Notes under the pieces: generated by a model
The model's database searches: none
Told to the model about the DNA's origin: nothing
The model's input: only the letters and a program-made list of their open reading frames with translations
In this document: piece by piece, positions 12,802-40,055 of the stretch
How the letters are laid out: every line of letters begins with the position of its first letter
How positions within the stretch are numbered: position 1 is the stretch's first letter
Assembly: GCF_000316685.1 (NCBI RefSeq)
Contig: NC_019680.1
Coordinates: 1,923,501 to 1,987,500 of the forward strand
Direction: 5' to 3'
Length of the DNA: 64,000 nucleotides
Origin: Synechococcus sp. PCC 6312
Lineage (GTDB): Bacteria > Cyanobacteriota > Cyanobacteriia > Thermosynechococcales > Thermosynechococcaceae
Made by a program: the position numbers and the translations under genes

Positions 12802-13245
12802 CTATTTTATTGAGCCAAAATATGCATCACCAGTAATGACTCGAACATGACAAAAACGTTGAATGATTTCAAAATCTTTTATGTTATCAGTTACGATTGT
12901 AACGCTGGCTCGCTTTGCTGTTCGGGCAATCAGAACATCATGGGTAATTCGATATTTCTGTTCAGCCGACATCTTTGGAGTTAGTCCAGCTCGCTTTGAC
13001 TTCAAGCCTTTTTGGAGAGAGTTTGTCACCTTCCCAACAATCCACCAATCTTCTGCATTTGGAACTAAAAGTCTTCCAGATTTTTCATACTCCCGTCTAG
13101 CAATGTTCAATCGCTTCAATTGTGCTTGGTCATCAGCACCCGCAACCAACTCTTGAAGTATGACTACAGAGAGGTAAAAACTATTGGGTAACTCAATATT
13201 TCGACGAGAAATGAGAATATTTGTATCAAACGTTACCTTAGTCAT
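12802..13245 (-). CDS. PIN-domain protein (VapC-like)
   Basis: 147 residues with the PIN nuclease layout: an N-terminal Asp in KVTFDTNILIS, the acidic residue after VILQELV, a central Asp in THDVLIARTAKR, and TIVTDNIKDFEII with the C-terminal acidic pair. These four acidic positions are the metal-binding site of VapC-type RNases. A 71-residue basic protein is encoded 134 bases upstream in the same direction and could be its antitoxin, though the gap is longer than usual. A relative of tRNA- or rRNA-cleaving toxins is likely; the target is unknown. Confidence 0.75.
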   Translation of the reverse strand: MTKVTFDTNILISRRNIELPNSFYLSVVILQELVAGADDQAQLKRLNIARREYEKSGRLLVPNAEDWWIVGKVTNSLQKGLKSKRAGLTPKMSAEQKYRITHDVLIARTAKRASVTIVTDNIKDFEIIQRFCHVRVITGDAYFGSIK

Positions 13246-15496: not shown

Positions 15497-15925
15497 ATGA
15501 AGTTTAGAGTCAACACGCCTACGGTCGTCAGCGAAGTGATTGAGGGGGAAGCAGTTATTCTCAACCTTGACAGTGGTAACTATTACAGCATGGAAGGTTC
15601 TGGAGCCATAATCTGGGAGTTATTATCCCAAGGACTAACGGTTACTGACATTGGTAATTGGCTAGCTAAGACATTTAGTGACCATCCTGATCGGATGATG
15701 AATACTGTGGTCGGCCTGGTCAGTGAATTGCAAATGGAGGGCTTGATTGTACCCTTAGGGGAAGATTTGCCTGATCCTGAGCCATTGAATTTAGACAATA
15801 TAGCAGTAGAGAAGAGTTTTGTTGAGCCAAAGCTGTGTAAATATAGCGATTTGCAAGATTTGTTGATATTAGACCCAATTCACGATGTTACAGACAGCGG
15901 TTGGCCGAAAGCCAATATTGAGTAG
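15497..15925 (+). CDS. PqqD-family peptide-binding protein with a leader-like C-terminal tail
   Basis: 142 residues. Residues 1-88 form a PqqD/RRE winged-helix domain: EGEAVILNLDSGNYYSMEGS and the helix GAIIWELLSQGLTVTDIGNW are typical. RRE proteins hold the leader of a RiPP precursor for other enzymes. Residues 89-107 are a linker. Residues 108-137 are distinctive: the pattern F-x-x-P-x-L-x-x-Y-S-D-L-x-x-L-L resembles the YxxPxL...G(D)L..LT leader consensus of lasso-type precursors, followed by LDPIHDVTDSGWP. It may be a fused substrate or a docking tail; this is inference. First gene of the AT-rich cluster, 35 bases before the kinase. No free precursor gene was found beside it. Confidence 0.78.
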   Translation: MKFRVNTPTVVSEVIEGEAVILNLDSGNYYSMEGSGAIIWELLSQGLTVTDIGNWLAKTFSDHPDRMMNTVVGLVSELQMEGLIVPLGEDLPDPEPLNLDNIAVEKSFVEPKLCKYSDLQDLLILDPIHDVTDSGWPKANIE

Positions 15926-15960
15926 AGGCTTAAAAGACAGCTTACAGAAAAATATAGCGT

Positions 15961-17061
15961 ATGACTTTGATGAGAGATTCTAGCTTAATGATAGACAATC
16001 ATGATATTTTTTGGAGTTTTTATCAATACTGCCAAGATAGTTTCAGTCATACAACCACAGTCTCCGAAAGCTTCTATAAAATAGGGGATTACACCGTTCA
16101 CTTAAAATTTGCAAATGAGACTATTCAAAAAATCATCTCTCCAGCTCAACTACATTTAATTATTCCTAAGACTTCTCAGGTGAAAGCAGATTTAACCATC
16201 TTTGTATCAGAGCAAGTTTCTCATAATCAACCTTTGCCGCAATTAGTTAAAGCTTGGTTTGAAGCAATAGCCCAGCACCCTGAAAAGTATCTTGCTCCTC
16301 GAGGTGAAATAATTAGTGGTGACAATCAGCAAATTTTAATTGCCTATAATGGTGGCTCAGGTATTATCAACCTCTATCATTTGGAGAAAAACATTGCTCT
16401 CTGCTTAATCCAAGATATAAATAGACTACCTTACTATGAAATTGGTTCACCATTTAAAGTTATTTGGCATTGGTTAGTTCAAAGTAAAGGACAATTAATG
16501 CTTCATGCTGGTGCAGTGGGTTTAGAGGATAAAGGAGTACTGTTGGTTGGTAAAGGCGGCTCAGGAAAGTCAACTACAGCCTTGGCCTGTATAGATAGCA
16601 AACTAAAATATTTAAGTGATGACTACTGTGTTGTAACTTGGGAGACATATCTAAAAGTCCATAGCTTATTTAGTACAGTGAAGTTAGTCGGTAAAAATGA
16701 TTTAAAACGTTTTCCATTCATCAACAAGCATCTATCTAACTCCAGAAATATCGAATATGAGAAAGCAATGGCATTTGTTAACCAGTTTGCGCCTGAAGCT
16801 TTACTAAATGAGTTACCCTTAAAAGCTATTTGTATTCCCAAGGTCACTGGTTTAAGCGCAACAACATGGGAAAGAACGTCTCCAGCTAAAGCACTTTTCT
16901 CAACCGCTCCTAGTAGTATTTTCCAATTGCCCTATACGAATAAAAATACATTTCAGATGATTTCCAAAGTTGCATCATACTTACCTTGTTTTTACCTCAA
17001 AATTGGGACAGATATAAAGCAGATTCCTGATAATATTCTGCAAATATTAAATGAATTGTAG
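15961..17061 (+). CDS. HprK-like P-loop kinase
   Basis: 366 residues. The C-terminal half is the HPr kinase/phosphorylase-like fold: MLHAGAVG (residues 180-187), the P-loop GKGGSGKSTT at 197-206, and YLSDDYCVV at 217-225 with the acidic pair that follows strand 3 in HprK. The N-terminal ~170 residues are a separate alpha/beta domain seen in 'HprK-related' kinases that accompany PqqD proteins. In the paeninodin lasso pathway a kinase of this class phosphorylates a Ser of the precursor. By analogy, the substrate here could be Ser/Thr in the PqqD tail or an exported sugar or peptide, but nothing in the sequence proves it. AT-rich, like its neighbours. Confidence 0.8.
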   Translation: MTLMRDSSLMIDNHDIFWSFYQYCQDSFSHTTTVSESFYKIGDYTVHLKFANETIQKIISPAQLHLIIPKTSQVKADLTIFVSEQVSHNQPLPQLVKAWFEAIAQHPEKYLAPRGEIISGDNQQILIAYNGGSGIINLYHLEKNIALCLIQDINRLPYYEIGSPFKVIWHWLVQSKGQLMLHAGAVGLEDKGVLLVGKGGSGKSTTALACIDSKLKYLSDDYCVVTWETYLKVHSLFSTVKLVGKNDLKRFPFINKHLSNSRNIEYEKAMAFVNQFAPEALLNELPLKAICIPKVTGLSATTWERTSPAKALFSTAPSSIFQLPYTNKNTFQMISKVASYLPCFYLKIGTDIKQIPDNILQILNEL

Positions 17062-17071
17062 CTATTTAGTT

Positions 17072-17821
17072 ATGACACTCCCTTTAATCTCAGTCATTAT
17101 TCCTGTTTACAATGGAGAGCATTTTTTAGCAGAAGCTCTTGCCAGTATCCATGCTCAAAACTATGACCCACTAGAACTAATTGTTGTTGATGATGGTTCT
17201 GCGGATAATAGTGCTGAAATTGCCAAAGCCGATTCAAGACTTCGTTACTTTTATCAAGAAAATCAAGGACAGGCTGTAGCACGGAATAATGGCATACTTC
17301 AAGCAAGAGGAGACTTAATTACCTTTCTTGATCAAGATGATGTATGGCCAAAAGGTAGCTTAATTAGGCTAGTTGAAATATTACAGAAAATGCCCGATGT
17401 TGCATTAGTTAATGGATTAGTACAAGAGTATAACTATTGTTTAGATGATGGCAAGTTCTATATTTCCGATAGACTTCCCTATTGGCATGTCAACCTAGGT
17501 AGTGCTCTTTTTCGCAAATCAATATTTTTCAAGGTAGGTCTATTGTCTGATGGGCTTAAAGGTTGTGATGATATTGAATGGTTTATGCGGGCCTGGTATC
17601 AAGAAGTTCCAAATTATAGTCTTGATAAAGTTACTCTTCACTATCGCAGACATGACAATAATATGACGTGGGATACCATAACAATAAAAAAAGGAATAAT
17701 GAGAGTTTACTATAAACACATTCAATATAATCATCAAAATCTACAACTTAGCCATAAAAAACAAAATTTTCTCGAATATATTGGCTTTAATAAATACCTT
17801 AAAAATAATCAAAAGAAATGA
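17072..17821 (+). CDS. Glycosyltransferase family 2 (first of the array)
   Basis: 249 residues from the ATG at 17072; an earlier in-frame ATG at 17051 overlaps the kinase. GT-A fold: SVIIPVYNGEHF at 6-17, VVDDGS at 38-43 for nucleotide binding, and FLDQDDVW with the metal-binding DxD variant at 87-90. The C-terminal segment has GCDDIEWFMRAW, with the likely catalytic acid, and HYRRHDNNMTWD, which recurs in the sister genes. No membrane anchor is seen, so it acts in the cytoplasm on a sugar nucleotide and an unknown acceptor. Five bases separate it from the next glycosyltransferase. Confidence 0.88.
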   Translation: MTLPLISVIIPVYNGEHFLAEALASIHAQNYDPLELIVVDDGSADNSAEIAKADSRLRYFYQENQGQAVARNNGILQARGDLITFLDQDDVWPKGSLIRLVEILQKMPDVALVNGLVQEYNYCLDDGKFYISDRLPYWHVNLGSALFRKSIFFKVGLLSDGLKGCDDIEWFMRAWYQEVPNYSLDKVTLHYRRHDNNMTWDTITIKKGIMRVYYKHIQYNHQNLQLSHKKQNFLEYIGFNKYLKNNQKK

Positions 17822-17825
17822 TTAT

Positions 17826-18566
17826 ATGAATAGTGATTACCCCCTAATTTCCGTGATTATTCCTGTCTGGAACGGCGAACAATTCTTGCCGGAAGCATTA
17901 GGAAGTATTCATGCTCAAGAATATCCATCTCTAGAAATTATTGTTGTTGATGATGGCTCAACAGATAATAGTGCTGTTATCGCTCAATCTGACCCGACCG
18001 TTAATTATTATTATCAGAATAACCAGGGGCCTGGTGCGGCAAAGAATATGGGATTAAAGAAGGCCAGTGGTAAATTTATCGCATTTTTAGATTCTGATGA
18101 CATCTGGACGAGAGATACACTACGGCGACACTCAAGTTATCTCGTTAATAATCCCTCTGTTGATATTGTTCAGTCTCAGGTTCAAGAATATTGTCTTAAT
18201 ACTTATCATCAAAAATTTAACCCGACAACAGTTCCTTATTTCATGTTTGCTTTAATGGCAAGTTCTTTATACCGTAAATATGTATTTGATTCTGTAGGAT
18301 TCTTTGATACAACATTAAGTTGTAGTGAAGATTGGGACTGGACGTTAAGAGCATACGAAATGAATATTTACAAAGAAAAACTGAATTTTCCGTCTTTATT
18401 GTATCGAAAACATGATAATAATATGACAAAATTTTTAACATTATCTCAGCTAAATTTGGTTAAAGTATATCATGGTCATTTAAAACGAATACGTCAACAG
18501 GAGCATAAAATGGAAAATTTACAAATACAGAAAATATTAGATTATTTTGGACATTGGCCCTATTGA
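17826..18566 (+). CDS. Glycosyltransferase family 2 (second of the array)
   Basis: 246 residues from the ATG at 17826, just after the preceding stop; the longer frame from 17781 would overlap that gene. It is a close relative of the first enzyme: SVIIPVWNGEQF, VVDDGSTDNSA, and FLDSDDIW with the DxD-type metal site. The C-terminal CSEDWDWTLRAYEMN replaces the usual W-F-M-R-A-W, suggesting a changed acceptor, while YRKHDNNMTK is kept. Very AT-rich at third positions. A 94-base gap with no gene follows before the third enzyme, so the array may have been assembled in blocks. Confidence 0.87.
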   Translation: MNSDYPLISVIIPVWNGEQFLPEALGSIHAQEYPSLEIIVVDDGSTDNSAVIAQSDPTVNYYYQNNQGPGAAKNMGLKKASGKFIAFLDSDDIWTRDTLRRHSSYLVNNPSVDIVQSQVQEYCLNTYHQKFNPTTVPYFMFALMASSLYRKYVFDSVGFFDTTLSCSEDWDWTLRAYEMNIYKEKLNFPSLLYRKHDNNMTKFLTLSQLNLVKVYHGHLKRIRQQEHKMENLQIQKILDYFGHWPY

Positions 18567-18660
18567 TTTCAGTTGCTCCCTAACCGTTATGAATTGATTA
18601 ACTTACCACTTGAGTTTATTTTCTTAGAGTCTTAAATCATCGGGTTATATTGGATAAGTT

Positions 18661-19416
18661 ATGATGATTATCAATTTACCTCTAATTTCAGTGATTATAC
18701 CTGTATATAACGGAGAGCGGTTTCTAACCGAGGCGTTAGATTCAGTTCACTCCCAGAATTACCAATCACTCGAAATAATTGTCGTGGATGATGGTTCTAC
18801 GGACAAAACCGCATCAATTAGCCAAGCAAATCCGAAAGTTTCCTATATTTATCAATACAACCAGGGAGCTGCATCTGCAAAAAATACGGGTATTAAAGCT
18901 GCCAAAGGAGAATACATCACATTTTTAGACTCTGATGACTTATATCCACCGGGAATGCTACTTAACTTGGCAACTTATTTGAGTCGAAATACCACGGTTG
19001 ATATTGCCCATGGCTTAGTTCAGCAACTTAACTATAATCCGCAAACAAGAACATTTGATTACTCGGGAATTCCCCATTGGAATGTAAACTTTGCCAGTGC
19101 ACTATATCGGGCATCTGTATTTGAGAAGGTGGGCTACTGTGATATTTCACTCAAAACAAATGAGGATGTAGATTGGTTTATGCGAGCCTGGGAGCTTGGA
19201 ATTCCAAAAGCTCGAATTTATGAAGTCGCTCTCTTACGTCGTAGGCATGATCAAAATATGACTAATGATAAGCTCCGAGTTCAACAGGGATTAGTGCAGG
19301 CTTTTTACCGTCATCTAAAACGAAATCGACAAGAATCAGAGCTTCTGTCTTCCTCAATCACTGTGGCCGATTATTTTGGTTATGTTTCATCTCCGGAGTT
19401 ACCAAGAATTTCATGA
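18661..19416 (+). CDS. Glycosyltransferase family 2 (third of the array)
   Basis: 251 residues. SVIIPVYNGERF, VVDDGSTDKTA and FLDSDDLYP provide the nucleotide and metal sites; TNEDVDWFMRAWELGIPK and RRRHDQNMTND match the C-terminal half of the sister enzymes. A hydrophilic tail with many Arg and Gln follows. Its TGA overlaps the ATG of the next gene (ATGA at 19413-19416), so translation of the pair is coupled. The acceptor and donor sugars are unknown. It is most similar to the first and fifth enzymes of the array by eye, which suggests duplication within the cluster. Confidence 0.88.
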   Translation: MMIINLPLISVIIPVYNGERFLTEALDSVHSQNYQSLEIIVVDDGSTDKTASISQANPKVSYIYQYNQGAASAKNTGIKAAKGEYITFLDSDDLYPPGMLLNLATYLSRNTTVDIAHGLVQQLNYNPQTRTFDYSGIPHWNVNFASALYRASVFEKVGYCDISLKTNEDVDWFMRAWELGIPKARIYEVALLRRRHDQNMTNDKLRVQQGLVQAFYRHLKRNRQESELLSSSITVADYFGYVSSPELPRIS

Positions 19417-20111
19417 ACTCCATTTCTATGATCAGTGTGGTGATGGTGGTTAAAAATGGCGAACCTTATTTATCTGAAGCCATTGACAGTATTGTCACTC
19501 AAACCTATCCTGTTGATGAAATTATTCTGGTTGATGGTAACTCAACAGATCGAACTGCAATAATTGCCCAATCCTATGATCTAGTTCAATATCAGTTACA
19601 GCGAGAACCAGGCCTGGCTCAAGCCTATAATCAAGGAATTGAAAGTGCTCAAGGGGAATTTATTGCTTTTTTGTCTCATGATGATCGATGGTCGCCTCAG
19701 AAGCTTCAATTACAGATTGAATTAATGAAGAGAGAACCGAATTTAGGATACACAATTACTAATTTTTGTTACTTTACAGAGTCTACTCTAGAAGATACCT
19801 ATAGTTTTAAATTATCCCTACTAGAACGAGAGCTTATTGGGCACATCATGGAAACTCTAGTAGCTCGAAAAAATGTGTTTAAGCAGGTAGGTTTACTGTC
19901 ACCATCTCTTGCGTTTGCTAATGATGTTGAGTGGTTTATTCGAGCTGAACAGAAGAATATCCCTATGAAGGCTATCCCACAAATATTGCTTTACAAGCGA
20001 GTTTGGAGCGGGAATACCGCAACGATTAATGCTGGTGTTAACTCTCAGGAGTTACTTAATATTCTTCGTCAGCACATCCAGCAGAAAAGATTGGGAAAAA
20101 GAAGTGACTAA
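19413..20111 (+). CDS. Glycosyltransferase family 2, divergent member
   Basis: 232 residues. It belongs to the same fold but a different branch: SVVMVVKNGEPYLSEAIDS, LVDGNSTDRTA in place of VVDDGS, and FLSHDDRW in place of FLDSDD. The first Asp of the DxD-type site is therefore Ser-His-Asp-Asp, which is also seen in some active family-2 members, so loss of activity cannot be concluded. FANDVEWFIRAE keeps the acidic C-terminal segment. Overlaps its upstream neighbour by four bases and is five bases from the next. It may add a different sugar from its sisters. Confidence 0.85.
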   Translation: MNSISMISVVMVVKNGEPYLSEAIDSIVTQTYPVDEIILVDGNSTDRTAIIAQSYDLVQYQLQREPGLAQAYNQGIESAQGEFIAFLSHDDRWSPQKLQLQIELMKREPNLGYTITNFCYFTESTLEDTYSFKLSLLERELIGHIMETLVARKNVFKQVGLLSPSLAFANDVEWFIRAEQKNIPMKAIPQILLYKRVWSGNTATINAGVNSQELLNILRQHIQQKRLGKRSD

Positions 20112-20115
20112 CTTT

Positions 20116-20856
20116 ATGATTGATGGTAAACCCTTAGTGAGTGTTATCATACCTGTGCATAATGGAGAGCTTTTCCTCGGTGAAGCACTAGCTAGTATTC
20201 ACAGACAATATTATGAGCCAATTGAAGTTATCGTGGTTGATGATGGTTCAACTGATCAGACCGCAGACATTGCAAAATCAGACCCACTAGTCCATTATTT
20301 AAAGTCTTCTTGCGCCGGCCCAGGCCCAGCCCGAAATCGGGGTTTAGAAATTGCTAAGGGAGAGTTCGTAACGTTTTTAGACTCTGATGATTTTTGGTTG
20401 GATAACATATTGATAAAATTTGTTGAATATCTCCAAATCAGGCCACTGGTTGATATAGTTCAAGGCCTAATGCAACCTTATGTCTTAAACTCAGATCTTG
20501 GTGTGTTTTTACCCCATTCTCAACCGGTATTTCTGATGCAGCTAGGTTGTTGTCTCTATCGAAAATCTCTTTTTCAGAGAGTGGGTACTTTTGATGAAAG
20601 TTTATATAGTGGTCAGGATATGGATTGGTTTACTCGGGCTTGGGAGTTAGGAATTATTAAACATCGCCTTGCTCAGGTAGTTTTATATTACCGTCGCCAC
20701 GAAAAAAATATAACTAAATCTATAAAAATATTACAAAAGGGGCGATTAGAAGCGTTTCATCGACATCTTCAACGAATGAAGCAGAAAAATTCTCAGATTA
20801 TGGATAATAACCATAGCTCATTGATGGACTATCTCGGGGCCTGGTCTGAAAGGTAA
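20116..20856 (+). CDS. Glycosyltransferase family 2 (fifth of the array)
   Basis: 246 residues from the ATG at 20116; the longer frame from 20029 overlaps the preceding gene. SVIIPVHNGELF, VVDDGSTDQTA and FLDSDDFW supply the donor and metal sites. SGQDMDWFTRAWELGI and YRRHEKNITK match the C-terminal segment shared by the array. The tail ends in a GGCCTGG motif (about 20838), one of the few in this AT-rich stretch. A 31-base gap leads to an SDR gene, so the array and SDR are probably one transcript. Confidence 0.87.
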   Translation: MIDGKPLVSVIIPVHNGELFLGEALASIHRQYYEPIEVIVVDDGSTDQTADIAKSDPLVHYLKSSCAGPGPARNRGLEIAKGEFVTFLDSDDFWLDNILIKFVEYLQIRPLVDIVQGLMQPYVLNSDLGVFLPHSQPVFLMQLGCCLYRKSLFQRVGTFDESLYSGQDMDWFTRAWELGIIKHRLAQVVLYYRRHEKNITKSIKILQKGRLEAFHRHLQRMKQKNSQIMDNNHSSLMDYLGAWSER

Positions 20857-20887
20857 CGTATCACCTAATTTTCGTTGGTACAGATAA

Positions 20888-21748
20888 ATGAATATCTTGC
20901 GTCGTCTCAAGTTAGTCTTTAATATATTAAAAGGAAAAGCTGATCCAGTCTTCATCATATCAACCACCGAGCCAGAGTTGGTGATGGATAATCAGCTTTT
21001 GTATGGCAAAAATGTATTTATTACTGGTGCTGGGCAAAATATTGGTCGTAGCATTGCTCTAGAGATGGCCAGGCAGGGAGCAAATATCTATTTTTTAGAC
21101 TTAGACCCGGAAAAATGTAAAAAGTTAGAATTTGAATTAGGTACTTACACCGTGAAGTTTAAGGGCTTTCAAGCTAATATTGTCAATCAGCAAGATATTG
21201 ACCAGATTATTGAGTATTTAAGTCGAGAAAATATCACTATTGATATTTTAGTAAATAATATTGGAATTGCCGTTAGAAAATCTCAGATCAATGACTTTTG
21301 TCTATCGGATTGGAAAATGGTTTATGATACTAATATATTTAGCCCTCTCTACCTAACTCAATTAGTGGCTAGTAATATGATTAGAACCTCAACAAAGGGA
21401 TCAATTATATTCATAACGTCAATCCATCAATGGCTGATCCATAATGATCCAAGCTACTCCTCCTCTAAGGCAGCATTAGGCATGGTTATCAAAGAAATGG
21501 CCATTGACTTAAGTAAATTTGGTATTCGTGTTAATGGCATTGCGCCTGGGTTAATAAAAGAAGATGAACAAGGCTACCCTCGTTACTGGCAATATGGTCA
21601 ATTACAAAAAACTTCTATTCCCCCAAAATACATTGGTAGAGCTGTAGTTTATCTTGCTTCTGACTATTTTAGTCACTTTACAACTGGTACAGTTCTGACA
21701 ATTGATAATGGCGTGGCAAGTTTGGGGTATCGTGCTAAATCTTCTTGA
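20888..21748 (+). CDS. SDR family oxidoreductase
   Basis: 286 residues with an N-terminal extension of about 35 residues before the Rossmann core. NVFITGAGQNIGRSIA is the cofactor loop, NNIGIAV stands where NNAG is usual, ITSIHQW holds the catalytic Ser, and YSSSK gives Tyr190 and Lys194. VNGIAPGLI and TGTVLTIDNGVAS complete a FabG/glucose-dehydrogenase-like enzyme. In a glycosyltransferase cluster it may reduce or epimerise a sugar nucleotide or modify a lipid or peptide; that is inference. It ends the plus-strand run before the inverted radical SAM gene. Confidence 0.88.
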   Translation: MNILRRLKLVFNILKGKADPVFIISTTEPELVMDNQLLYGKNVFITGAGQNIGRSIALEMARQGANIYFLDLDPEKCKKLEFELGTYTVKFKGFQANIVNQQDIDQIIEYLSRENITIDILVNNIGIAVRKSQINDFCLSDWKMVYDTNIFSPLYLTQLVASNMIRTSTKGSIIFITSIHQWLIHNDPSYSSSKAALGMVIKEMAIDLSKFGIRVNGIAPGLIKEDEQGYPRYWQYGQLQKTSIPPKYIGRAVVYLASDYFSHFTTGTVLTIDNGVASLGYRAKSS

Positions 21749-21771
21749 TGTAGATGTGGATAGCTGATGTC

Positions 21772-22572
21772 TTACTTAACAGAAATATTTGTAATCGGAT
21801 TAGGCAATGAAAATGTCTTGGGATTTGATGGACACATAGCGCAATAGCTTTCATCTTCACGCCCTAAAAACTCGTGTAGTTCTGGCTCGGTGCAGTTTGA
21901 CGATAGTGGTGTGTAGTTTAAATAGGGTTGCCAGTATTCAGAAAGAGAGTATTTCTTTGCTTGAAGTTGTAAGTATGCGAGAGGAGGACATTTCCAAAGT
22001 TGCCCTTGAAATAACTGTAAACAATGCTTCGCAGGGCAATTTTCCCAACTTTGTCGGGGTTGATTATCTGCAAAAGGTTCCATCTGTGAACCAATGCCAT
22101 AATATCGCCGTGTCCAATATTTTTGAGAGTTTAAAATCTTTATAGTGATTTCATACTCTCGTTGCCATTGAAAAACTAAATCTAATTGGGGTTGTAGGTG
22201 GCTTAGATATTCTGGGCTGTCGTGATGGATTGAAATATGAAGTTCAGCCCTAGGGTAAGACCTAAGAAATCGAGGAAGATCAGGATGCCGTTCAAGAAAA
22301 AAACCATTGGTCACTAAACGCAACTTACTGTGCGGAAAATATTTCTTAACAAGCGGTACAAATTCTGCTAACTGAGGATGAAGAGTCGGCTCGCCCCCGA
22401 GTAAAGAAAAGGAAATTGGCTGAACTCGTCCTTGCCATTGCTCAAACCATCGCGCTGCTTGTCCCAGAGTTACTAGTCCTTGATGATATTGATTAGAATA
22501 ATGAGCACAACTTTCACAGTGTAGATTACAGTTATGAATGATATGAAGTTCAAGATTTCTAACTATTTTCAT
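21772..22572 (-). CDS. Radical SAM enzyme with extra cysteines
   Basis: 266 residues. Cys15, Cys19 and Cys22 in HNCNLHCESC form the CxxxCxxC [4Fe-4S] site; LLGGEPTLHP at 57-66 is the GGEP SAM-binding motif. The C-terminal half carries Cys179, Cys184, Cys195, Cys227, Cys244 and Cys247, a SPASM/twitch-like set able to hold auxiliary clusters. Such enzymes modify peptides (PqqE, SkfB) or sugars. It is the only gene of the cluster on the minus strand, starting 70 bases from the divergent sixth glycosyltransferase, so it may be separately controlled. With a PqqD protein in the same cluster, peptide modification is plausible but unproven. Confidence 0.85.
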   Translation of the reverse strand: MKIVRNLELHIIHNCNLHCESCAHYSNQYHQGLVTLGQAARWFEQWQGRVQPISFSLLGGEPTLHPQLAEFVPLVKKYFPHSKLRLVTNGFFLERHPDLPRFLRSYPRAELHISIHHDSPEYLSHLQPQLDLVFQWQREYEITIKILNSQKYWTRRYYGIGSQMEPFADNQPRQSWENCPAKHCLQLFQGQLWKCPPLAYLQLQAKKYSLSEYWQPYLNYTPLSSNCTEPELHEFLGREDESYCAMCPSNPKTFSLPNPITNISVK

Positions 22573-22642
22573 AGATATTAACTGACTAAAGCTACTTATA
22601 CTGATGCATAATACTATATAGTCCGATGTAAATTTATTTAAT

Positions 22643-23353
22643 ATGACAAATATAATTAAGGATGATAGTTTGATCAGTGTAATTATACCTGTTTTTAATG
22701 GTGAAAAGTATATTAAAGCTGCTATTACTAGTGTTCTTTCTCAGATGAAAAACTCTTTGGAAATTGTCGTAATTGATGACGGTTCTAATGATTACACATC
22801 CACAGTTATACAGAAATTGATGCAGAATCATCAGAATATCTACTACAAATATCAAGAAAATCGAGGGGTTGGAGTAGCTCGTAATTATGGTGTTGAAATC
22901 TCTCAGGGTGAATTTCTCGCCTTCCTGGATGCCGATGATCTTTGGGCAGCTAATAAATTAACTATCCAGATAAATGCATTCAAGCAAAATCCAGATATAG
23001 ATATTGTCTTTGGACAAGTTGAGCATTTCATCAGTCCCGATCTCTCTACCCAAGAAGCGCAACGCTGGAACTATCCTCACAAGATTATGCCCGCTTACGC
23101 CGCTGGGGCTATGTTATTAAGACGAGAAACCTTTAACCATGTCGGTCAATTCTCAGAAACTTGTGAAGTTGGACAATTTCTTGACTGGTATTTAAGAGCG
23201 ATTGAATTAAATCTAATCAGCTTTCTTCCACCCGATGTCGTGCTCTTAAGGCGTGTTCACAATGATAATTCATCTCAAAAATCGAAAAGTTATTGGCAAG
23301 ACTATGTGCGGATTATAAAATCTTCTTTAGACCGTAGAAGGAGTCAATTTTAA
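22643..23353 (+). CDS. Glycosyltransferase family 2 (sixth of the cluster)
   Basis: 236 residues. SVIIPVFNGEKYIKAAI, VIDDGSNDYTS and FLDADDLW are the donor and metal sites. The C-terminal half differs from the array enzymes: MLLRRETFNHVGQFSE, then EVGQFLDWYLRAIE and LRRVHNDNSSQKS. This form, with 'F.Y.R.I/H...N', is common next to PqqD and nucleotidyltransferase genes in cyanobacteria as far as I recall. It ends three bases before the ABC transporter start, so the two are surely co-transcribed. Confidence 0.86.
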   Translation: MTNIIKDDSLISVIIPVFNGEKYIKAAITSVLSQMKNSLEIVVIDDGSNDYTSTVIQKLMQNHQNIYYKYQENRGVGVARNYGVEISQGEFLAFLDADDLWAANKLTIQINAFKQNPDIDIVFGQVEHFISPDLSTQEAQRWNYPHKIMPAYAAGAMLLRRETFNHVGQFSETCEVGQFLDWYLRAIELNLISFLPPDVVLLRRVHNDNSSQKSKSYWQDYVRIIKSSLDRRRSQF

Positions 23354-23356
23354 ACT

Positions 23357-25030
23357 GTGAAGACAAGACATTCTCTAAAGTTGTGGCAATTTTATTTGTC
23401 ATTTTACGAACGACGATATGGCAAACTTTCCTGGAGTATCTTTCTCTCTTTCTTACAATCACTTATGGTTTTACCGAGTATGTACTTGGCTCGCGCTGCA
23501 TTTGATTGGGCCATTCCAAGTCGAAGCTTAGTCTCTCTTTTTCAAGTTGGCTTAGGGATGCTTCTTTTTAGTCTTTTAAGTGCCACTATCGCTCTCACAA
23601 ATCGTTATTTAACATTGATTATTACCAAAACAGCAATTCTAAAAATGCGCGTGCAACTCCTAGAAAGATTATTCATCATCCCCAGAGAGATATATCGTCA
23701 GTCAGATTACGTTCACTGGCACACGACTATTGTTCAAGATACTGAACGTCTAGATATTATGAGCAATAACTCTCTCACAGTGGTGCTGCCATCCGTTGTT
23801 ACAACTATTAGCTTAGTTATCTTACTTTGGTATTGGAACCCATTGCTTTTAGCCTTAATGGCTCTAATTTCACCACTGGCATTTATTTATAATTACTATG
23901 CAAGGAGAAAGTTAAAATATACCACACCATTATTCTTAAGAGCATTTGAACAGTTTAGTAAGGGCATCTTATTTACTATTCGCAGTTTAGATCTAATTCA
24001 TATTCAATCTGCCCAAGAATGGGAATGGTTTCGTCAGAAAGAATCAATTAAAAATTTATACCATAAAAGTATCCAAGTGGCTTGGTTAAATAGTGCTTAT
24101 ACCTTAACTCAAAATAACTTATTAACCATTGCTAAGTTAATACTTTTAATAGGTGGTGGTTGGGCTGTGATTGGTAATACAATTAGCTTGGGTGAGTTGA
24201 TTGGATTTTATATCGCTACAAACCTGTTGCAAACTGCCTTACAATCAATATTGGGAACAATTCCAGTTTTCATTTCAGGACAAGCATCTTTAGATAATAT
24301 CTATCGTTTTTTCCATTATCCAATTTCGCAGCCCTACAATGGACAGATACAGGTTGATTGGCAAGGTAAACTATCTTTAACCGCTATTACTTTCTCTCAC
24401 GGTAAGACTCCAATCCTATCGGATTTAAGCTTAACCCTATGGCCAGGCCAAGTTATTGTTATTCTCGGCCCAAACGGTTGCGGAAAAAGTACTCTCATTG
24501 ATTTGATCTTGGGCTTTTACCGACCCAACTCTGGAGAGATTGTGGCTGATGAGTTGTCTTATAGGGATATTGATATAGCTTCTTTTCGTCAACGAATTGG
24601 GGTTGTAAGGCAAGAAAATTTCTTCTTTCCTGGTACGGTTTGGGAAAATTTGACCTATGGTCTGAATGATCATCCTGAATCCGAAGTCAACCATGTTCTT
24701 GAAATTGCTATGGCAGATTATTTCATTCAACAATTGCCACAAGGGCTTCAGACAAAAATTGGTGAAGATGGCAATCTCTTATCTGGTGGGCAACGGCAGC
24801 GACTGGCATTGGCTCGTAGTTTATTACGTTATCCTAAGATGTTAATCTTAGATGAACCAACTAATCACTTGGATCAAGAGGCAATTGCGGAATTGATGGC
24901 TAATTTGAAGAAAGTACAATCCAGGCCTGGAATTTTAATTGTTAGCCATAACTTAAAACTAACTGAACAGGCAGATCAAGTCTTAGAAATGAATGATGGC
25001 AAGTTAAGACTAGTTTCTCCTCTTATTTAA
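23357..25030 (+). CDS. ABC exporter, fused permease and ATPase
   Basis: 557 residues starting at a GTG three bases after the previous stop. Residues 1-~310 form a six-helix type I exporter domain with no C39 peptidase in front. The ATPase domain has GPNGCGKST near 371-379 (Walker A), LSGGQRQRLALAR near 475 (signature), MLILDEPTNHLD near 496-507 (Walker B) and VSHN for the H-loop. Half-transporters of this MsbA/lasso-exporter class work as dimers to move lipids, glycolipids or peptides out. The 'NHLD' after Walker B is a little unusual for exporters. Likely exports the product of the cluster. Confidence 0.9.
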   Translation: MKTRHSLKLWQFYLSFYERRYGKLSWSIFLSFLQSLMVLPSMYLARAAFDWAIPSRSLVSLFQVGLGMLLFSLLSATIALTNRYLTLIITKTAILKMRVQLLERLFIIPREIYRQSDYVHWHTTIVQDTERLDIMSNNSLTVVLPSVVTTISLVILLWYWNPLLLALMALISPLAFIYNYYARRKLKYTTPLFLRAFEQFSKGILFTIRSLDLIHIQSAQEWEWFRQKESIKNLYHKSIQVAWLNSAYTLTQNNLLTIAKLILLIGGGWAVIGNTISLGELIGFYIATNLLQTALQSILGTIPVFISGQASLDNIYRFFHYPISQPYNGQIQVDWQGKLSLTAITFSHGKTPILSDLSLTLWPGQVIVILGPNGCGKSTLIDLILGFYRPNSGEIVADELSYRDIDIASFRQRIGVVRQENFFFPGTVWENLTYGLNDHPESEVNHVLEIAMADYFIQQLPQGLQTKIGEDGNLLSGGQRQRLALARSLLRYPKMLILDEPTNHLDQEAIAELMANLKKVQSRPGILIVSHNLKLTEQADQVLEMNDGKLRLVSPLI

Positions 25031-25061
25031 TTGTTGATACGTCTTTTGGTTATCTTTGTCT

Positions 25062-26261
25062 ATGTCTATTTCAACACATGCGACCCGGCCATTAAGGGGT
25101 GGAAACTACCAAGCAACTCCTGAACAAATTTTATTATTGCGGGCATCTCTTTGGCCTGGAGAAAGGGCAATTCACGCATGGCAGGCCTGGATACAGCAAG
25201 TGGACTTTGAAAACCTTGATGCTGGCTCTAATCGGCTACTGCCGCTACTATACCGAAATTTATCTCAACTTGGTGTCGAACACCCAACAATAGAAAAGCT
25301 TAAAGGTATCTATCGATATACTTGGTCAATGAATCAGCTTCGTGCTCAAAGGCTAAGAAAAGTTTTAGAGAAGTTTCAAGAGGCAGATGTTCCAACTATT
25401 TTACTAAAGGGGATGAGCTTATGCATTGCCGATTATCAAGATTGGGGGGTACGGCCTATGGTAGATATGGATGTTTTGGTTCCTCCTGAGTTTACTGAAA
25501 AAGCTATGACGATTTTAATGCAAGATGGTTGGAAGTCTACACATTATAATCCTGACAAGGTCCATGAACATATATCTTTGCGACATGCCTCTGGATTAAA
25601 AGATCAAGACGGGTGGAGCCTAGATTTACATTGGCGAATTTTTCAAAATAGTTTTACCCTTTGTGATCAGAAAGTTTTTTGGGATGACAGTCAGCTAGTA
25701 AAATTTATGGGTTTAAAAACAAGAATACTTAAACCAATTGACCGTTTTCTCCATGTCTGTGTTCACGGTTCTTGCTGGTCTCCGGAGCCTCCTATTCGTT
25801 GGATTGCTGATGCATTAACAATTTACTATAAGCAAGATTTTTCTAACTGGTTAGAATTAGTGGAACGAACTAATTTATTTTCACTTAATCTTCCCTTGTT
25901 GACCACATTAACTTATCTTAATGATAATCTAGAACTATCAATTCCCAGAAATATATTTTCTCATATCGATCATTACTCTGCTACTAAAAAGGAGAAGTTT
26001 GCACATTATATAAGAACTAACTCCTCTGTGGATGTTTTCTCTAAAAATCCTCTTAACTCTATCTTGGCAGAGTTGATGAGCTTAAAGCTTATGTATCAGA
26101 GCTTTAGTTTATACCCAGGTCAATTATCAAAATCAAAGAAAAACCTATTGTCTTTTCTATGGACGTATTTTCGATCAGAATTCTGTTGGCAAAAGCTCAT
26201 TTCTAGAATCAATAAACTATTTAACACAATATTGATAGTTTTCTTCAAGATTTCTCGATAA
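25062..26261 (+). CDS. Nucleotidyltransferase family protein (NTP_transf_5 type)
   Basis: 399 residues from the ATG at 25062. The family hallmark is TILLKGMSLCIADYQDWG followed by RPMVDMDVLVP around residues 110-140, giving the two metal-binding Asp of a polymerase-beta-like fold. LHWRIFQN and FLHVCVHGSCW with WIADAL are typical of the second half. Members occur beside PqqD and HprK-like genes; in the pseudomycoidin lasso pathway a nucleotidyltransferase acts on an already phosphorylated peptide. The target here is unknown. Last gene of the cluster; GGCCTGG motifs near its start may mark a junction with host DNA. Confidence 0.82.
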   Translation: MSISTHATRPLRGGNYQATPEQILLLRASLWPGERAIHAWQAWIQQVDFENLDAGSNRLLPLLYRNLSQLGVEHPTIEKLKGIYRYTWSMNQLRAQRLRKVLEKFQEADVPTILLKGMSLCIADYQDWGVRPMVDMDVLVPPEFTEKAMTILMQDGWKSTHYNPDKVHEHISLRHASGLKDQDGWSLDLHWRIFQNSFTLCDQKVFWDDSQLVKFMGLKTRILKPIDRFLHVCVHGSCWSPEPPIRWIADALTIYYKQDFSNWLELVERTNLFSLNLPLLTTLTYLNDNLELSIPRNIFSHIDHYSATKKEKFAHYIRTNSSVDVFSKNPLNSILAELMSLKLMYQSFSLYPGQLSKSKKNLLSFLWTYFRSEFCWQKLISRINKLFNTILIVFFKISR

Positions 26262-36236: not shown

Positions 36237-38642
36237 ATGCCTACACAGCAGCGCACGAGAGGGATCGCCGCAACCGTTGCAGGACAACAAAAATTACAGG
36301 AGACTAAGGCGGCTGGCAAAGAGGATGGAACCCGCTTGACCTTTGAATGCATTGCTGATCGTATTTCTCGGAACTCTCAAACTTCAGTTGACCCAAGAAC
36401 GATAAGACGATTTTTTAATGGTGAAGGCATTGATCGAGATTATGTCCTGGCAATTTGTACGGCGTTGGGTCTAGAGGTCACAGAAATTGTTGATCCGAAT
36501 GAATGGCATCCCAATAAGTCCCGTCAAACGCCCCAACCCGTGGCGACCTCTGCAACCTTGAATACCACACCCCCCACTGTTGATGAGTGGCAGGGACGGC
36601 AAACCGAAATCAGTGAACTTCAACGGGCGTTAGGCAATGACAATATTCGCTTAATCGGCATTACGGCAGCAGGGGGTTATGGTAAATCAGCTCTAGCGGT
36701 GAAGTTAACGGAACAGTTAACCCTGGATTGGCGAGTATTGTGGGTCAGTTTCACCCAAGCCTATGGGTTAGCTCAATTTGGGCGTTGGTTATTGGAGCAG
36801 TTGGGGCAACCCTACGATGAAAAATGGGATGAGGAGACATTAATTCAGCAGATGGTACAGGGATTAACCCAAGGGCCTTGTTTGTTGGTGTTGGATAATT
36901 TGGAAACGGTGGTGACAGCAGATGCAGATTCGGTTTATGGTCAATTTTTAAGCCGATGGTTAGCCACAGGACGCAATAGTAAGCTACTGCTCACCAGTCG
37001 AGAAAAGCCGAGTTTTACCCCTAATTTACTGCGTCGTTGTCATTGGTTAGCCCTTCAGGGGTTGGCCGAAGCCGATGCCATGCGTTTAGTGACGGTGGAT
37101 TATGGTTTGACGGGAACGGAATCGGAATTAGCTCGATTTGTGAACCAGATGGGACGGCATCCGCTCCTGATGCAACTGGTTTGTAGTTTGATGGTGGAGC
37201 AATTTGGGGCGGGGGTAACGGTAACGGCGGCAACGCAATTAGGGTTAGATTTGTTTTCGGTGTCGGGTTATCACCGTGACGCGGAAACCTCTGTAGGAGA
37301 AGTGGTGGCAGCCAGTTTGGCCCGCCTCTCACCTCGGTTAGGAACATTGTTAAAACGGTTGTCGGTGTTACGGATTGCCTTTGATTTGTCTTTAGCTCAA
37401 GGGTTAGCGGCAGAAGTCACGGAGCCAGAGTTACGGCACTTAGCCCGACTCTCGTTATTGCAGGAGTCACCCCCTGAACCGCTCAACAATAAACCGCGAC
37501 AGTTTCAGTTGTTGCCCTTAATTCAGATGTTTGTGCAACAGCAAGCGGATTCTGAGGTGTTGCGAGTTGCCCATCAGTCAGCGTTGGCTTATTTTTTGGC
37601 ACATTTACCCTCGCCTCCTTGGAAATCCTTAGACGATTTGACGGCCTATTTGGAGGCGTTTTATCATGCAATTGAGTTAGGGCAATTTGAACAGGCTTAT
37701 GAGATTTTGACGGAAGAGCGGGGCGGAGAAGGGAAAAATAAATCCGTTGATCATTTTTTACATTTACAAGGATTTTATCGACAGGAAGCAGAGTTATACA
37801 AGCAGGTAGTCGCGGGTAGTCAACGAGAACAGAAATGTTATCGCAACTCGTTAAACCTTTTGGGCAATTGTTATGATTACCTAGGGCAGTACGAAAAAGC
37901 GATCGCCTATCACCAGCAATGTCACGACATCAGTGAAGAAATGGGCGATCGGCAAGGAGTGGCAATGTCTCTAAGCAATTTAGGCGTTTGTTATGATTAC
38001 CTAGGGCAGTATGAAAAAGCGATCGCTTACCACCAGCAATCTCACGACATCAATGAAGAAATAGGCAATCGGCAAGGAGTGGCAAGTTCTCTAGACAATT
38101 TAGGACTTTGTTATCACTCCCTAGGGCGATATGAAGAGGCAATCCCCTATCATCAGCAATCTCTTACAATCGAAGAGGAAATCGGTAATCGGCAAGGGGT
38201 GGCACTCTCTCTAGTCAATTTAGGCATTTGTTATAAATCCTTGGGACAGTATGAAAAAGCGATCGCCTATCATCAGCAATGTCACGACATCAGTGAAGAA
38301 ATCGGCGCTTGGCAAGGGGTGGCAATTTCTTTACACAATATAGGGGAGACGTTGATCAAACTTGAAAACTACAGCGAAGCAGAAACCAAAATTCAAGCAT
38401 CCTTAGTTATTTCTCAAGCAATTAACTTTAAATCTTTAATCGCCCATAGTTTCCAAACCCTTGCCGAAATCGCTCATCAAACCAATCAACCCCACCTCGC
38501 CCTCAGCCATTGCCAAGCCGCTCTCACTCTCTCCCAAGAACTTGGCATTCCTTTAGTCAAAGACTGCGAAGAACTCCTCGCCAAAATTCAGGCTACATTA
38601 GCAGAAAATCCAAAACCCTATAATAATGAGGAAAAATCATGA
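36237..38642 (+). CDS. STAND NTPase: N-terminal helix-turn-helix, NB-ARC, TPR repeats
   Basis: 801 residues. Residues 1-~90 form a small DNA-binding-like domain (TFECIADRISRNSQTSVDPR then TIRRFFNGEGIDRDYVLAIC). The NB-ARC region starts near 115: GITAAGGYGKSA at 141-152 is Walker A, CLLVLDNLE at 215-223 Walker B, and SRWLATGRNSKLLLTSRE has the sensor Arg. A winged-helix part follows, then TPR repeats from ~540 to 790 (about 40 residues each), the likely ligand-sensing end. STAND proteins are molecular switches used in signalling and phage defence. No host GGCCTGG motif occurs in it, and it carries the only GCGATCGC octamers I found. Small toxin-antitoxin-like genes follow. Confidence 0.85.
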   Translation: MPTQQRTRGIAATVAGQQKLQETKAAGKEDGTRLTFECIADRISRNSQTSVDPRTIRRFFNGEGIDRDYVLAICTALGLEVTEIVDPNEWHPNKSRQTPQPVATSATLNTTPPTVDEWQGRQTEISELQRALGNDNIRLIGITAAGGYGKSALAVKLTEQLTLDWRVLWVSFTQAYGLAQFGRWLLEQLGQPYDEKWDEETLIQQMVQGLTQGPCLLVLDNLETVVTADADSVYGQFLSRWLATGRNSKLLLTSREKPSFTPNLLRRCHWLALQGLAEADAMRLVTVDYGLTGTESELARFVNQMGRHPLLMQLVCSLMVEQFGAGVTVTAATQLGLDLFSVSGYHRDAETSVGEVVAASLARLSPRLGTLLKRLSVLRIAFDLSLAQGLAAEVTEPELRHLARLSLLQESPPEPLNNKPRQFQLLPLIQMFVQQQADSEVLRVAHQSALAYFLAHLPSPPWKSLDDLTAYLEAFYHAIELGQFEQAYEILTEERGGEGKNKSVDHFLHLQGFYRQEAELYKQVVAGSQREQKCYRNSLNLLGNCYDYLGQYEKAIAYHQQCHDISEEMGDRQGVAMSLSNLGVCYDYLGQYEKAIAYHQQSHDINEEIGNRQGVASSLDNLGLCYHSLGRYEEAIPYHQQSLTIEEEIGNRQGVALSLVNLGICYKSLGQYEKAIAYHQQCHDISEEIGAWQGVAISLHNIGETLIKLENYSEAETKIQASLVISQAINFKSLIAHSFQTLAEIAHQTNQPHLALSHCQAALTLSQELGIPLVKDCEELLAKIQATLAENPKPYNNEEKS
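37869..38348 (+). repeat. Four 120-bp tandem repeats encoding TPR units
   Basis: Units start at 37869, 37989, 38109 and 38229, each 40 codons, and are strikingly alike at the DNA level, especially the first two. Units 1, 2 and 4 hold GCGATCGC (37899, 38019, 38259). Such near-identity implies recent duplication or gene conversion in the sensor part of the STAND protein and could let unit number change by slippage. Confidence 0.85.
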
Positions 38643-38665
38643 ATATCATAAGCTAAACTTTAAAT

Positions 38666-38926
38666 ATGCCTGAAATTAGTCGCTTTTTCGGAATCATTAT
38701 TACGATCAATTACAATGATCACAATCCACCTCATTTTCATGTTCGCTATGGTAATCAAAAAGCCCTAATTAGCATTGAAAATTTATCTATTATTGAAGGA
38801 AAACTAACCCCAAGAGTTCTTGGTCTCATTGTTGAATGGGCCGCCCTTCATCAGTCAGAATTACAAAATAACTGGGAACTCGCTAGACAACAACAACCCT
38901 TACAAAAAATCCAACCTTTAGATTAA
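38666..38926 (+). CDS. DUF4160 protein
   Basis: 86 residues; the family signature is ITINYNDHNPPHFHVRYGNQ with the conserved DHxPPHxH, followed by a strand-rich middle and LIVEWAALHQSELQNNW. DUF4160 proteins are nearly always paired with DUF2442, as here (two bases apart), and are regarded as toxin-antitoxin-like, though the activity is unproven. The pair lies just after the STAND gene and before a leftover STAND 3' tail, so it appears to have been inserted or exchanged there. Intact. Confidence 0.88.
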   Translation: MPEISRFFGIIITINYNDHNPPHFHVRYGNQKALISIENLSIIEGKLTPRVLGLIVEWAALHQSELQNNWELARQQQPLQKIQPLD

Positions 38927-38928
38927 TT

Positions 38929-39171
38929 ATGTTACAAGACATCACTTTTGTTGAACCCTTAAACAACTATCAACTTCATCTCCGTTTTGAAGACAACCTA
39001 GAAGGTATTATTGACCTTCAAAAACAAATCGAATTTAGTGGCGTATTTGAACCACTTAAAAATCCCGACTACTTTGCTCAAGTAAAAGTCAATCCTGAAC
39101 TCGGAACAATTCAATGGCCCAATGGAGCCGATCTCGATCCCGATGTTTTATATGCAGCCCTTGAAATCTGA
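38929..39171 (+). CDS. DUF2442 protein
   Basis: 80 residues with LRFEDNLEGIIDLQKQIEFS, FEPLKNPDYFAQVKVNPELG and TIQWPNGADLDPDVLY, which together define DUF2442. Usual partner of DUF4160; one structure of the family is a small alpha/beta fold. The DUF4160-DUF2442 pair starts two bases apart and forms a single unit. The next 126 bases carry a fragment of STAND-TPR 3' coding sequence. Confidence 0.9.
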   Translation: MLQDITFVEPLNNYQLHLRFEDNLEGIIDLQKQIEFSGVFEPLKNPDYFAQVKVNPELGTIQWPNGADLDPDVLYAALEI

Positions 39172-39191
39172 ACTCAGTTAGACTGACATTT

Positions 39192-39317
39192 TAAGAGGTG
39201 ATCGCCCATCAACCCCAATTCGCCCTCACTCACTCCCAAGAACTTGGTATTCCTTTAGTCAAAGACTGCGAAGAACTCCTCGCCAAAATTCAGGAAAACT
39301 TAGGGGAAAATGATTAA
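39192..39317 (+). pseudogene. Leftover 3' end of a second STAND-TPR gene
   Basis: This stretch repeats the last codons of the STAND gene: TCCCAAGAACTTGG and the following ~60 bases are nearly identical to 38537-38600 (reading SQELGIPLVKDCEELLAKIQ in both), with a ~25-base deletion before it. It ends at a different stop, after ENLGEND. No start codon or body is present, so it is a tail left by a paralogous gene or by partial duplication. Confidence 0.75.
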
Positions 39318-39414
39318 AGTTTACTTTCCAAATTCAGAAATATTGGACTTAGAAACTAAGCCCCTACCCGAATTTTAATGATTTAATTCAATAAACAAAT
39401 TATCAGGATTATCA

Positions 39415-39726
39415 ATGGCAACAACTTTAATCAATCACATTGAAATTACCCCAGGAACCTGTGGGGGGAAACCTCGCATCGCAGATCATCGTATCAAAGT
39501 CCAAGATGTCTTTATTTGGCATGAATGGATGGGAATGTCCCCCGATGAAATTGTTTATCACTACCCAAGTATCACACTAGCCGATGTTTACGCCGCTCTT
39601 TCTTATTATCACGATCATCTTGAAGAAATTAGACAACAAATTCTAGATGATGATGCCTTTGCGAAGGAAATGCAAGCTAAAACACCTTCTCTAGTCCAAG
39701 AAAAATTGAGAAGAATGAATGAGTAA
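39415..39726 (+). CDS. DUF433 antitoxin
   Basis: 103 residues. HIEITPGTCGGKPRIADHRI followed by VQDVFIWHEWMGMSPDEIVY and HYPSITLADVYAALSYY is a typical DUF433 HTH-like antitoxin. The C-terminal helix extends past the domain and would wrap the partner toxin. It overlaps the start of the DUF5615 gene (ATG at 39719 within its final codons), the usual arrangement in cyanobacteria. Intact, although its toxin appears frameshifted. Confidence 0.9.
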   Translation: MATTLINHIEITPGTCGGKPRIADHRIKVQDVFIWHEWMGMSPDEIVYHYPSITLADVYAALSYYHDHLEEIRQQILDDDAFAKEMQAKTPSLVQEKLRRMNE

Positions 39727-40055
39727 CAAGATTAAAATTTCATTTAGATGAGAATGTAAGCTATAGCATTGCCATTGGATTGCGCCATCGAGGCCTTGAT
39801 GTTACTACTACTCCAGAAGAAAATTTATTGGGGGTATCGGATGAAATACAAGACCAATTTTCTTTATCTAAAGGTCGCGTAATTTTTACTCAAGATACTG
39901 ATTTTTTAAGATTCAGTCAATTATCTGTAACTCATGCAGGGATTGCTTATTATCCACAACAAAGTAAGTCAATTGGTCAAATAATTCGAGGGCTACTCTT
40001 AATCTGGGAAATTCTTAAACCCGAAGAAATGTATAACCATATAGAATTTTTATGA
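39719..40055 (+). pseudogene. DUF5615 PIN-like toxin, frameshifted near the start
   Basis: The expected ATG at 39719 gives MSNKIK and then stops after a few codons. One base out of frame the sequence reads KFHLDENVSYSIAIGLRHRG and continues as a complete DUF5615 protein (VTTTPEENLLGV, VIFTQDTDFLRFS) to 40055. Removing one A from the AAAA at 39734-39737 restores the frame. The loss hits the first strand with the catalytic LDEN. An internal TTG at 39780 could start translation but would drop the active-site Asp. Either a disarmed toxin or a base-call error. Confidence 0.7.

Follow-up and report, generated by a model that had tools for sequence, protein, structure and literature searches.

The 64,000-nucleotide stretch of the Synechococcus sp. 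PCC 6312 genome analysed here (contig NC_019680.1, positions 1,923,501 to 1,987,500 of the forward strand; referred to as the window) contained an AT-rich gene cluster at 15497-26261, which begins with a gene for a PqqD-like protein. This protein is a lasso-type RiPP recognition element (RRE; RiPP, ribosomally synthesized and post-translationally modified peptide), and we found that it carries a variable linker, a segment FxxPxL resembling lasso leaders, and then a nearly invariant peptide of about 20 residues. An HprK-like kinase was identified as the co-inherited partner of this tailed PqqD, and genes for a PF14907 protein, an MsbA-like exporter and family 2 glycosyltransferases (GT2s) as its usual neighbours. 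The system is widespread in bacteria and apparently undescribed. We propose, with a probability of about 0.4, that the cluster directs the synthesis and export of a glycan or glycoconjugate bearing phosphate, for which the tailed PqqD would be a self-presenting RRE organiser with its tail as a docking hub.

The PqqD protein (142 aa; 15497..15925, plus strand; PF05402, 49 bits) consisted of an RRE domain (residues 1-88), a variable linker (89-107) and a conserved C-terminal tail (108-137) with the sequence FVEPKLCKYSDLQDLLILDPIHDVTDSGWPKANIE. The tail comprised the leader-like segment FVEPKLCKY (residues 108-116; 15818..15844, plus strand) and the nearly invariant peptide DLQDLLILDPIHDVTDSGWP (residues 118-137; 15848..15907, plus strand), located at the position of a RiPP core. 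Among 98 non-redundant homologues from at least ten phyla, the tail was more conserved than the folded domain, with the consensus FxxPxLxKYTDMQDLLLLDPIHEVDExGWP. D118, L123, D126, P127 and W136 were identical in all 98 homologues, H129 and G135 were kept in 96, V131 in 91 and P137 in 80; for positions 121-130 part of this conservation is built into the search pattern, which did not cover D118, V131, G135, W136 and P137. A scan of 84,980 species genomes with the pattern [ED]LLx[LA]DPIH[ED] gave 340 matches, 321 of which were relatives of the query. The phyla assigned, for the best 80 of the 340 matches, were Acidobacteria, Chloroflexi, Nitrospirota, Ignavibacteria/Bacteroidetes, Proteobacteria, Gemmatimonadota, Verrucomicrobia, Lentisphaerae, Planctomycetes and cyanobacteria, where single assignments may be wrong as many genomes are metagenome bins.

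The tail was always C-terminal and always attached. When 386 cyanobacterial genomes were searched with the whole protein, tailed proteins aligned over nearly their full length, and short PqqD proteins over the domain only. The tail-only search detected no free-standing copy in 674 genomes (373 cyanobacterial and 301 Chloroflexota), the tail-bearing frames being at least 143 aa in the former and at least 146 aa in the latter. None of the NCBIfam models matched the tail, and no paper bringing the LDPIH motif and PqqD together was found in a literature search that had subscription papers and preprints outside its scope. The tail was missed in an earlier reading of the letters and open reading frames of the window (the sequence-only reading), which had proposed a search for co-conserved short frames. 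No conserved precursor-like small frame was found near the tailed-PqqD loci; the conserved peptide was instead fused to the PqqD protein. Several variants of the tail were also observed. The same genome encodes a second tailed PqqD (L046:9687-10115, contig C1, ~2.27 Mb) with the variant tail SYRSPILNIYRDMADMLALDPPMPDLKEVPWK / LALDPPMPDLKEVPWK, whose neighbours are GT4 glycosyltransferases as well as an HprK-like kinase; L044 had a similar variant. The WP element at the tail end was duplicated in loci of Nitrospirota and Gemmatimonadota (L090, L092, L115 and L131), as in GWPMPKGETAAWPAPKSET, and family f31, whose members belong to the same phylum as the window and have small genomes (1.6-2.5 Mb; L042, L047-L050 and L054-L065), had the extended tail GWTPEKDSIGYTKEET.

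The first half of the tail corresponded to [Y/W]xxPx[L/V], the RRE-binding motif of lasso leaders, with Phe replacing Tyr/Trp in most homologues, and the spacing of F108, P111 and L113 was the same as that of W-15, P-12 and L-10 in PbaA. In crystal structures, the WxxPxL motif of PbaA sits in the RRE cleft, and the residues from -9 to -7 after L-10 extend the sheet (PMC13381572). The AlphaFold2 model of the PqqD protein likewise showed a strand at residues 114-116, following L113, with a predicted local distance difference test score (pLDDT) of 81-89 over residues 101-120, while residues 121-142 were free in the model with a low pLDDT of 53-61. The same predicted docking appeared in the model of a fusion protein of locus L043 (~30% identical), whose alignment shares sequences with that of the window protein. 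The sequence search and the model pointed to TbiB1 and TfuB1, both leader-bound, as the nearest solved structures, with PbaB1 and LppB also among the nearest; the RRE sequence search gave 69.6 bits for TbiB1 and 33 bits for LppB. According to this prediction, the FxxPxL segment joins the leader-binding cleft of the same protein as an extra strand, and the invariant peptide stays exposed; pairing of the segment with the RRE sheet is suggested by the model confidence, secondary structure and spacing.

The lasso leaders in cyanobacterial loci with a short PqqD read YEKPTLNKYGTMKEFT or YTAPKLLSYGDVDALT, by comparison with FxxPxLxKYTDM in the tail. One cyanobacterial locus (L060:4632-6571) encoded three lasso-like precursors with leaders of the YxxPxLxKYGTMKxFT type near a short PqqD gene. 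Two loci of the PCC 6312 genome itself (L071 and L072; contig C1, ~2.69 and ~3.58 Mb) had a short PqqD adjoining Asn-synthetase-like proteins, with no precursor recognised. Both were lasso-like, and one of them also contained an HprK-like kinase and a UGT-type glycosyltransferase.

The gene following that of the tailed PqqD (15961..17061, plus strand) encodes an HprK-like P-loop kinase of 366 aa. Its match to the Pfam HprK model PF07475 was real but weak (21.3 bits, cut-off 33.3), and the Walker A motif GKGGSGKST was clear in the sequence. This kinase subfamily (E<=1e-8) was present in 16 of the 373 cyanobacterial genomes, all of which belonged to the 28 tail-bearing ones (hypergeometric p=6e-21, not corrected for genome relatedness). 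The nine tail genomes of the window's class all possessed the kinase in equal copy numbers; the tail/kinase copies were 2/2 in G145, 3/3 in G270 and, counting the variant tail, 2/2 in G000. One kinase gene was found in 20 of 21 tail-bearing Chloroflexota genomes, even where it was remote from the PqqD gene, and in the 301-genome sample of this phylum all six strong kinase matches fell in tail genomes (n=7), although four of the genomes counted in this overlap were already known beforehand. In other species, components of the unit were also joined in single frames, namely a kinase-GT2 fusion of 612 aa, a kinase-GT2-GT2 fusion of 855 aa and a tailed PqqD-PqqD-kinase fusion of 649 aa. Three apparent giant fusions were not counted, as those of L097 and L152 seem to be reading frames overextended through GC-rich DNA, and that of L117 contains undetermined bases.

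The neighbourhoods of 107 tailed PqqD genes were then inspected. Within six genes, the HprK-like kinase was found near 78, GT2 near 69, PF14907 near 51 and the ATP-binding cassette (ABC) protein near 41 of them, along with a second GT2 group (16) and a second PF14907 group (15); these counts are lower bounds because contig ends truncate a large number of the loci. The gene order PqqD, PF14907, ABC, kinase and GT2s recurred in Nitrospirota, Bacteroidetes and Deltaproteobacteria. Each core protein of the window had its best relatives in other tailed-PqqD loci (36-57% identity), which together with the recurrence of the gene set across many phyla indicated that the clustering was more than chance. 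The sequence-only reading had regarded these genes as a functional unit, a view that would have suffered if the homologues were rarely neighbours elsewhere; owing to the above counts, it stands. The other same-strand neighbours were GT4, sulfotransferase, SMP-30, short-chain dehydrogenase/reductase (SDR) and some radical S-adenosylmethionine (SAM) proteins. No peptidase was detected in the 25 commonest families of 124 neighbours. In family f31, a triplet of PF14907, a kinase-PqqD fusion and a tailed PqqD heads long glycosyltransferase-rich loci. Five loci from certain Chloroflexota (L098, L104, L109, L113 and L151) had a tailed PqqD with an ABC exporter and proteins similar to nonribosomal peptide synthetases (NRPSs), not with GT2s, and the kinase elsewhere in the genome; the NRPS-like protein of L151 comprised adenylation, carrier and lipid-A-acyltransferase-like domains.

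Every gene named for the cluster in the sequence-only reading was confirmed by checking the sequence, and each lay at the coordinates given. That reading had counted six glycosyltransferases, and six PF00535 proteins were indeed encoded, all on the plus strand; four were tandem relatives of one group, and the remaining two represented separate groups that have relatives of their own elsewhere. Group A was thus expanded to four copies with 42-48% identity to one another (17051..17821; 17811..18566, with an uncertain start codon; 18661..19416; and 20113..20856, whose frame opens at 20029 with a likely start at ~20113). The group B gene (19413..20111) was 48% identical to L116:12396-13094 and 47% to L036:13329-14015, and the group C gene (22643..23353) was 48% identical to counterparts in L039, L112 and L138. 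The MsbA-like exporter (23357..25030, plus strand; PF00664 and PF00005) is a fused ABC protein without a peptidase domain, showing 39-42% identity to exporters of the tailed-PqqD loci. The last gene (25056..26261, plus strand) encodes an NTP_transf_5 nucleotidyltransferase-like protein (PF14907, 135 bits, 3e-39) with 36-40% identity to its counterparts in these loci, and this protein probably represents the enzyme type of the nucleoside triphosphate (NTP) transferases PsmN and LppN. Neither this protein nor the kinase had a useful match among the PDB sequences. The SDR oxidoreductase (20888..21748, plus strand; PF00106) was accessory and recurred in cyanobacterial members with 54-57% identity. 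The radical SAM protein (21772..22572, minus strand; PF04055), listed with the others in the sequence-only reading, was placed outside the recurring unit, its best relatives in tailed-PqqD loci being only 20-28% identical.

The AT-richness of the cluster was also borne out, with a G+C content of 0.345-0.391 inside and 0.45-0.51 around the island in 2-kb windows, the flanks being at ~49%; the host genome is 3.72 Mb in two contigs. At the thresholds used, five genomes sampled from the host's family yielded neither tail nor kinase, and these results together with the base composition suggest that the cluster was gained horizontally. An empty-site comparison with five family members showed the right-hand flank gene to be mostly absent or unlinked. 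Elsewhere in the window, we noted a further AT-rich dip at 38001-40000 (G+C 0.389, negative GC skew) and a minus-strand PIN-domain-like frame at 12802-13245, which may encode the toxin of a toxin-antitoxin pair.

The gene content of the cluster points to an exported phosphorylated glycan or glycoconjugate as the product. The FxxPxL segment would hold to its own RRE cleft and leave the invariant peptide exposed, and the exposed peptide would dock the kinase and perhaps also the PF14907 protein and the GT2s. Such docking could bring phosphorylation and glycosylation together; the resulting phosphate-linked glycan, which the GT2s would extend, might be decorated by SDR, epimerases or sulfotransferases and carried out by the MsbA-like exporter. 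The tail would then act as a standing docking platform, not as a consumed substrate. FtsZ and SSB are built on the plan of a folded domain, a variable linker and a conserved C-terminal peptide, to which the tailed PqqD can be likened. The sugar-related genes among the neighbours (GT4, sulfotransferase, SMP-30 and SDR) count for the phosphoglycan. A docking platform is favoured over a fused precursor because of the tails lacking hydroxyl residues: 14 of 97 had neither Ser nor Thr from residue 121 on, 28 of 97 were free of Ser from residue 114 onwards, and over that same stretch the L046 tail lacked both. The 14 tails also mean that phospho-Ser chemistry of the kind known from linear polyphosphorylated peptides (LPPs) cannot be general for the tail. 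Several points weigh against this proposal. In the AlphaFold2 model of a natural PqqD-tail/kinase fusion, the invariant peptide did not dock on the kinase (pLDDT 62 then 38); this model had few aligned sequences covering the kinase and gives no inter-domain confidence. One of the 21 tail-bearing Chloroflexota genomes gave no kinase match, and some Chloroflexota tailed PqqDs adjoin exporter and NRPS-like genes instead of the kinase. Moreover, to our knowledge, RREs are known as substrate presenters, not as hubs.

It is also possible, though we lean against it, that the system is a self-contained RiPP, in which the tail is a precursor fused to the RRE with FxxPxL as leader and LLxLDPIHEVDExGWP as core. 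Here the kinase, the PF14907 protein and the GT2s would act on core residues other than a conserved Ser, such as Thr/Ser117, Asp118, Asp126, His129 or Trp136, and export would involve either the modified peptide or a small product released from it. The leader motif at lasso spacing with its predicted docking in cis, the conserved part located at the expected core start, the duplicated WP element in Nitrospirota and Gemmatimonadota tails, and the finding of no other precursor frame near the loci all agree with such a RiPP, and invariant cores do occur for fixed cofactors such as mycofactocin. In the LPP and pseudomycoidin systems, enzymes of these types act on peptides (PMC13381572, PMC9266682). 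However, the recurring neighbours included no leader peptidase, no S26 or Transglut_core3 gene lay nearby, the cores without Ser/Thr are at odds with the requirement of LppK for Ser, and a whole protein would be spent for each product. We regard as rather doubtful a pan-bacterial RiPP-like class with a permanently RRE-fused precursor, whose in-cis leader would offer the invariant DPIHEVDExGWP core to the kinase, PF14907 protein and GT2s; here a phosphoglycan might be built on a core residue other than a conserved Ser, and the RRE protein might be the carrier or product of a peptide-anchored surface glycan.

An ordinary surface-polysaccharide locus with a regulatory PqqD-kinase pair seems decidedly unlikely. 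The kinase would sense or phosphorylate a sugar or carrier, and the tail would gate the RRE as an auto-inhibiting element displaced by a distant, unlinked precursor or regulator. The dominance of glycan genes in the loci, the f31 triplet at the head of glycosyltransferase-rich loci and the competition that a docked leader-like segment would offer to a true leader are in line with this view, but the nearly invariant residues past the docking segment call for a separate binding partner, the kinase-GT2 fusions indicate joint catalysis rather than regulation, and no conserved precursor-like frame accompanied the loci. That the cluster represents the LPP or paeninodin families in a cyanobacterium, with its free precursor or peptidase encoded at another site of the genome, is very improbable and already disfavoured. 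It would explain the common RRE, HprK, NTP-transferase and MsbA core in glycan loci (PMC13381572), but the clusters contained no LPP-motif peptide, neither an SpI nor a lasso B2 gene was nearby, the tail was always fused, and the RRE profile was nearer to TbiB1 than to LppB.

RREs serve as markers for RiPP discovery on the presumption of a separate precursor, and the tailed family brings its own leader-like segment, combining an RRE with a nearly invariant peptide and a co-inherited kinase in glycan loci of many phyla. The tailed PqqDs offer an incisive way to decide whether RRE/HprK/NTP-transferase modules produce peptides or organise phosphoglycan synthesis, and the conserved tail motif is a simple handle for finding further members.

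Among known systems, the SynChlorMet cassette also combines HprK-like (ScmC) and PqqD-like (ScmD) proteins, and membership was rejected from the scores (29.9 bits for ScmD, cut-off 100; 16.9 bits for ScmC, cut-off 125). The HPr-rel-A type (TIGR04352, HprK-related kinase A), with which the sequence-only reading had considered the cluster compatible, shares an HprK-like kinase beside a PqqD-like protein; this assignment was dropped, as the window kinase scored 38.8 bits, far under the cut-off of 200. Mycofactocin involves an RRE, an invariant core region and a glycosyltransferase (MftA/MftB/MftF), with an invariant core for a fixed-cofactor product, and its free MftA requires the radical SAM enzyme MftC for maturation. 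The window cluster differed in having no conserved radical SAM enzyme and no free precursor, and its radical SAM protein scored 16.5 bits against the mycofactocin model (cut-off 265).

The phosphorylated lasso peptides paeninodin and pseudomycoidin share with the cluster an HprK-like kinase, a nucleotidyltransferase-like enzyme and a discrete PqqD-type RRE (PMC9266682), as well as a counterpart of the YxxP/WxxP leader. The C-terminal Ser of pseudomycoidin is the target of the kinase PsmK, and the addition of one or two hexoses to the resulting phospho-Ser depends on PsmN (PMC9266682). The window cluster differs in the lack of a macrolactam cyclase and B2 protease, in its precursor-like peptide not being free and in the added GT2s. 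Domain searches detected no Asn-synthetase-like cyclase among the cluster proteins and no Transglut_core3 (lasso B2) gene near them, the sole genome copy lying at 1.09 Mb, more than 800 kb away, in agreement with the sequence-only reading; the window cluster is not a lasso cluster. A lasso ring closed on an acid at core position 8/9 was likewise discarded, because D132 (62/98) and E133 (67/98) are variable and there is no cyclase. The same reading had expected a phosphorylated, glycosylated and exported product guided by a peptide, which fits the known chemistry of HprK-like kinases and PF14907-type proteins from lasso and LPP systems (PMC9266682, PMC13381572).

Of the systems described so far, the LPP family of Bacillota (Popov et al. 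2026, PMC13381572) comes closest; in it, a free precursor has the leader YxxPxVLxHQxIxFETxxS and a variable core, LppK phosphorylates the core Ser3, and an SpI-like leader peptidase takes part. The tailed-PqqD cluster lacks two defining features of this family, the SpI peptidase and the free motif-bearing precursor: no SpI-like (S26) gene was found near the cluster at 1.94 Mb, the genome copies being only at 2.52 and 2.57 Mb, and no precursor with the LPP motif was present in the clusters, one unrelated frame outside the cluster being the only match. It differs further in that the leader-like segment and the invariant peptide are fused to the RRE, in its occurrence in many other phyla and in its many tails without Ser. 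The LPP loci lie in a capsule setting with an uncharacterised NTP transferase, and the same question of peptide or glycan arises for the LPP and paeninodin systems near capsule loci (PMC13381572). The statement of the sequence-only reading that the RiPP classes familiar to it do not cover this combination is now outdated, since both systems have a discrete lasso-type RRE, an HprK-like kinase (below the Pfam cut-off in the window cluster), an NTP transferase and an MsbA-like exporter together in glycosyltransferase-rich loci.

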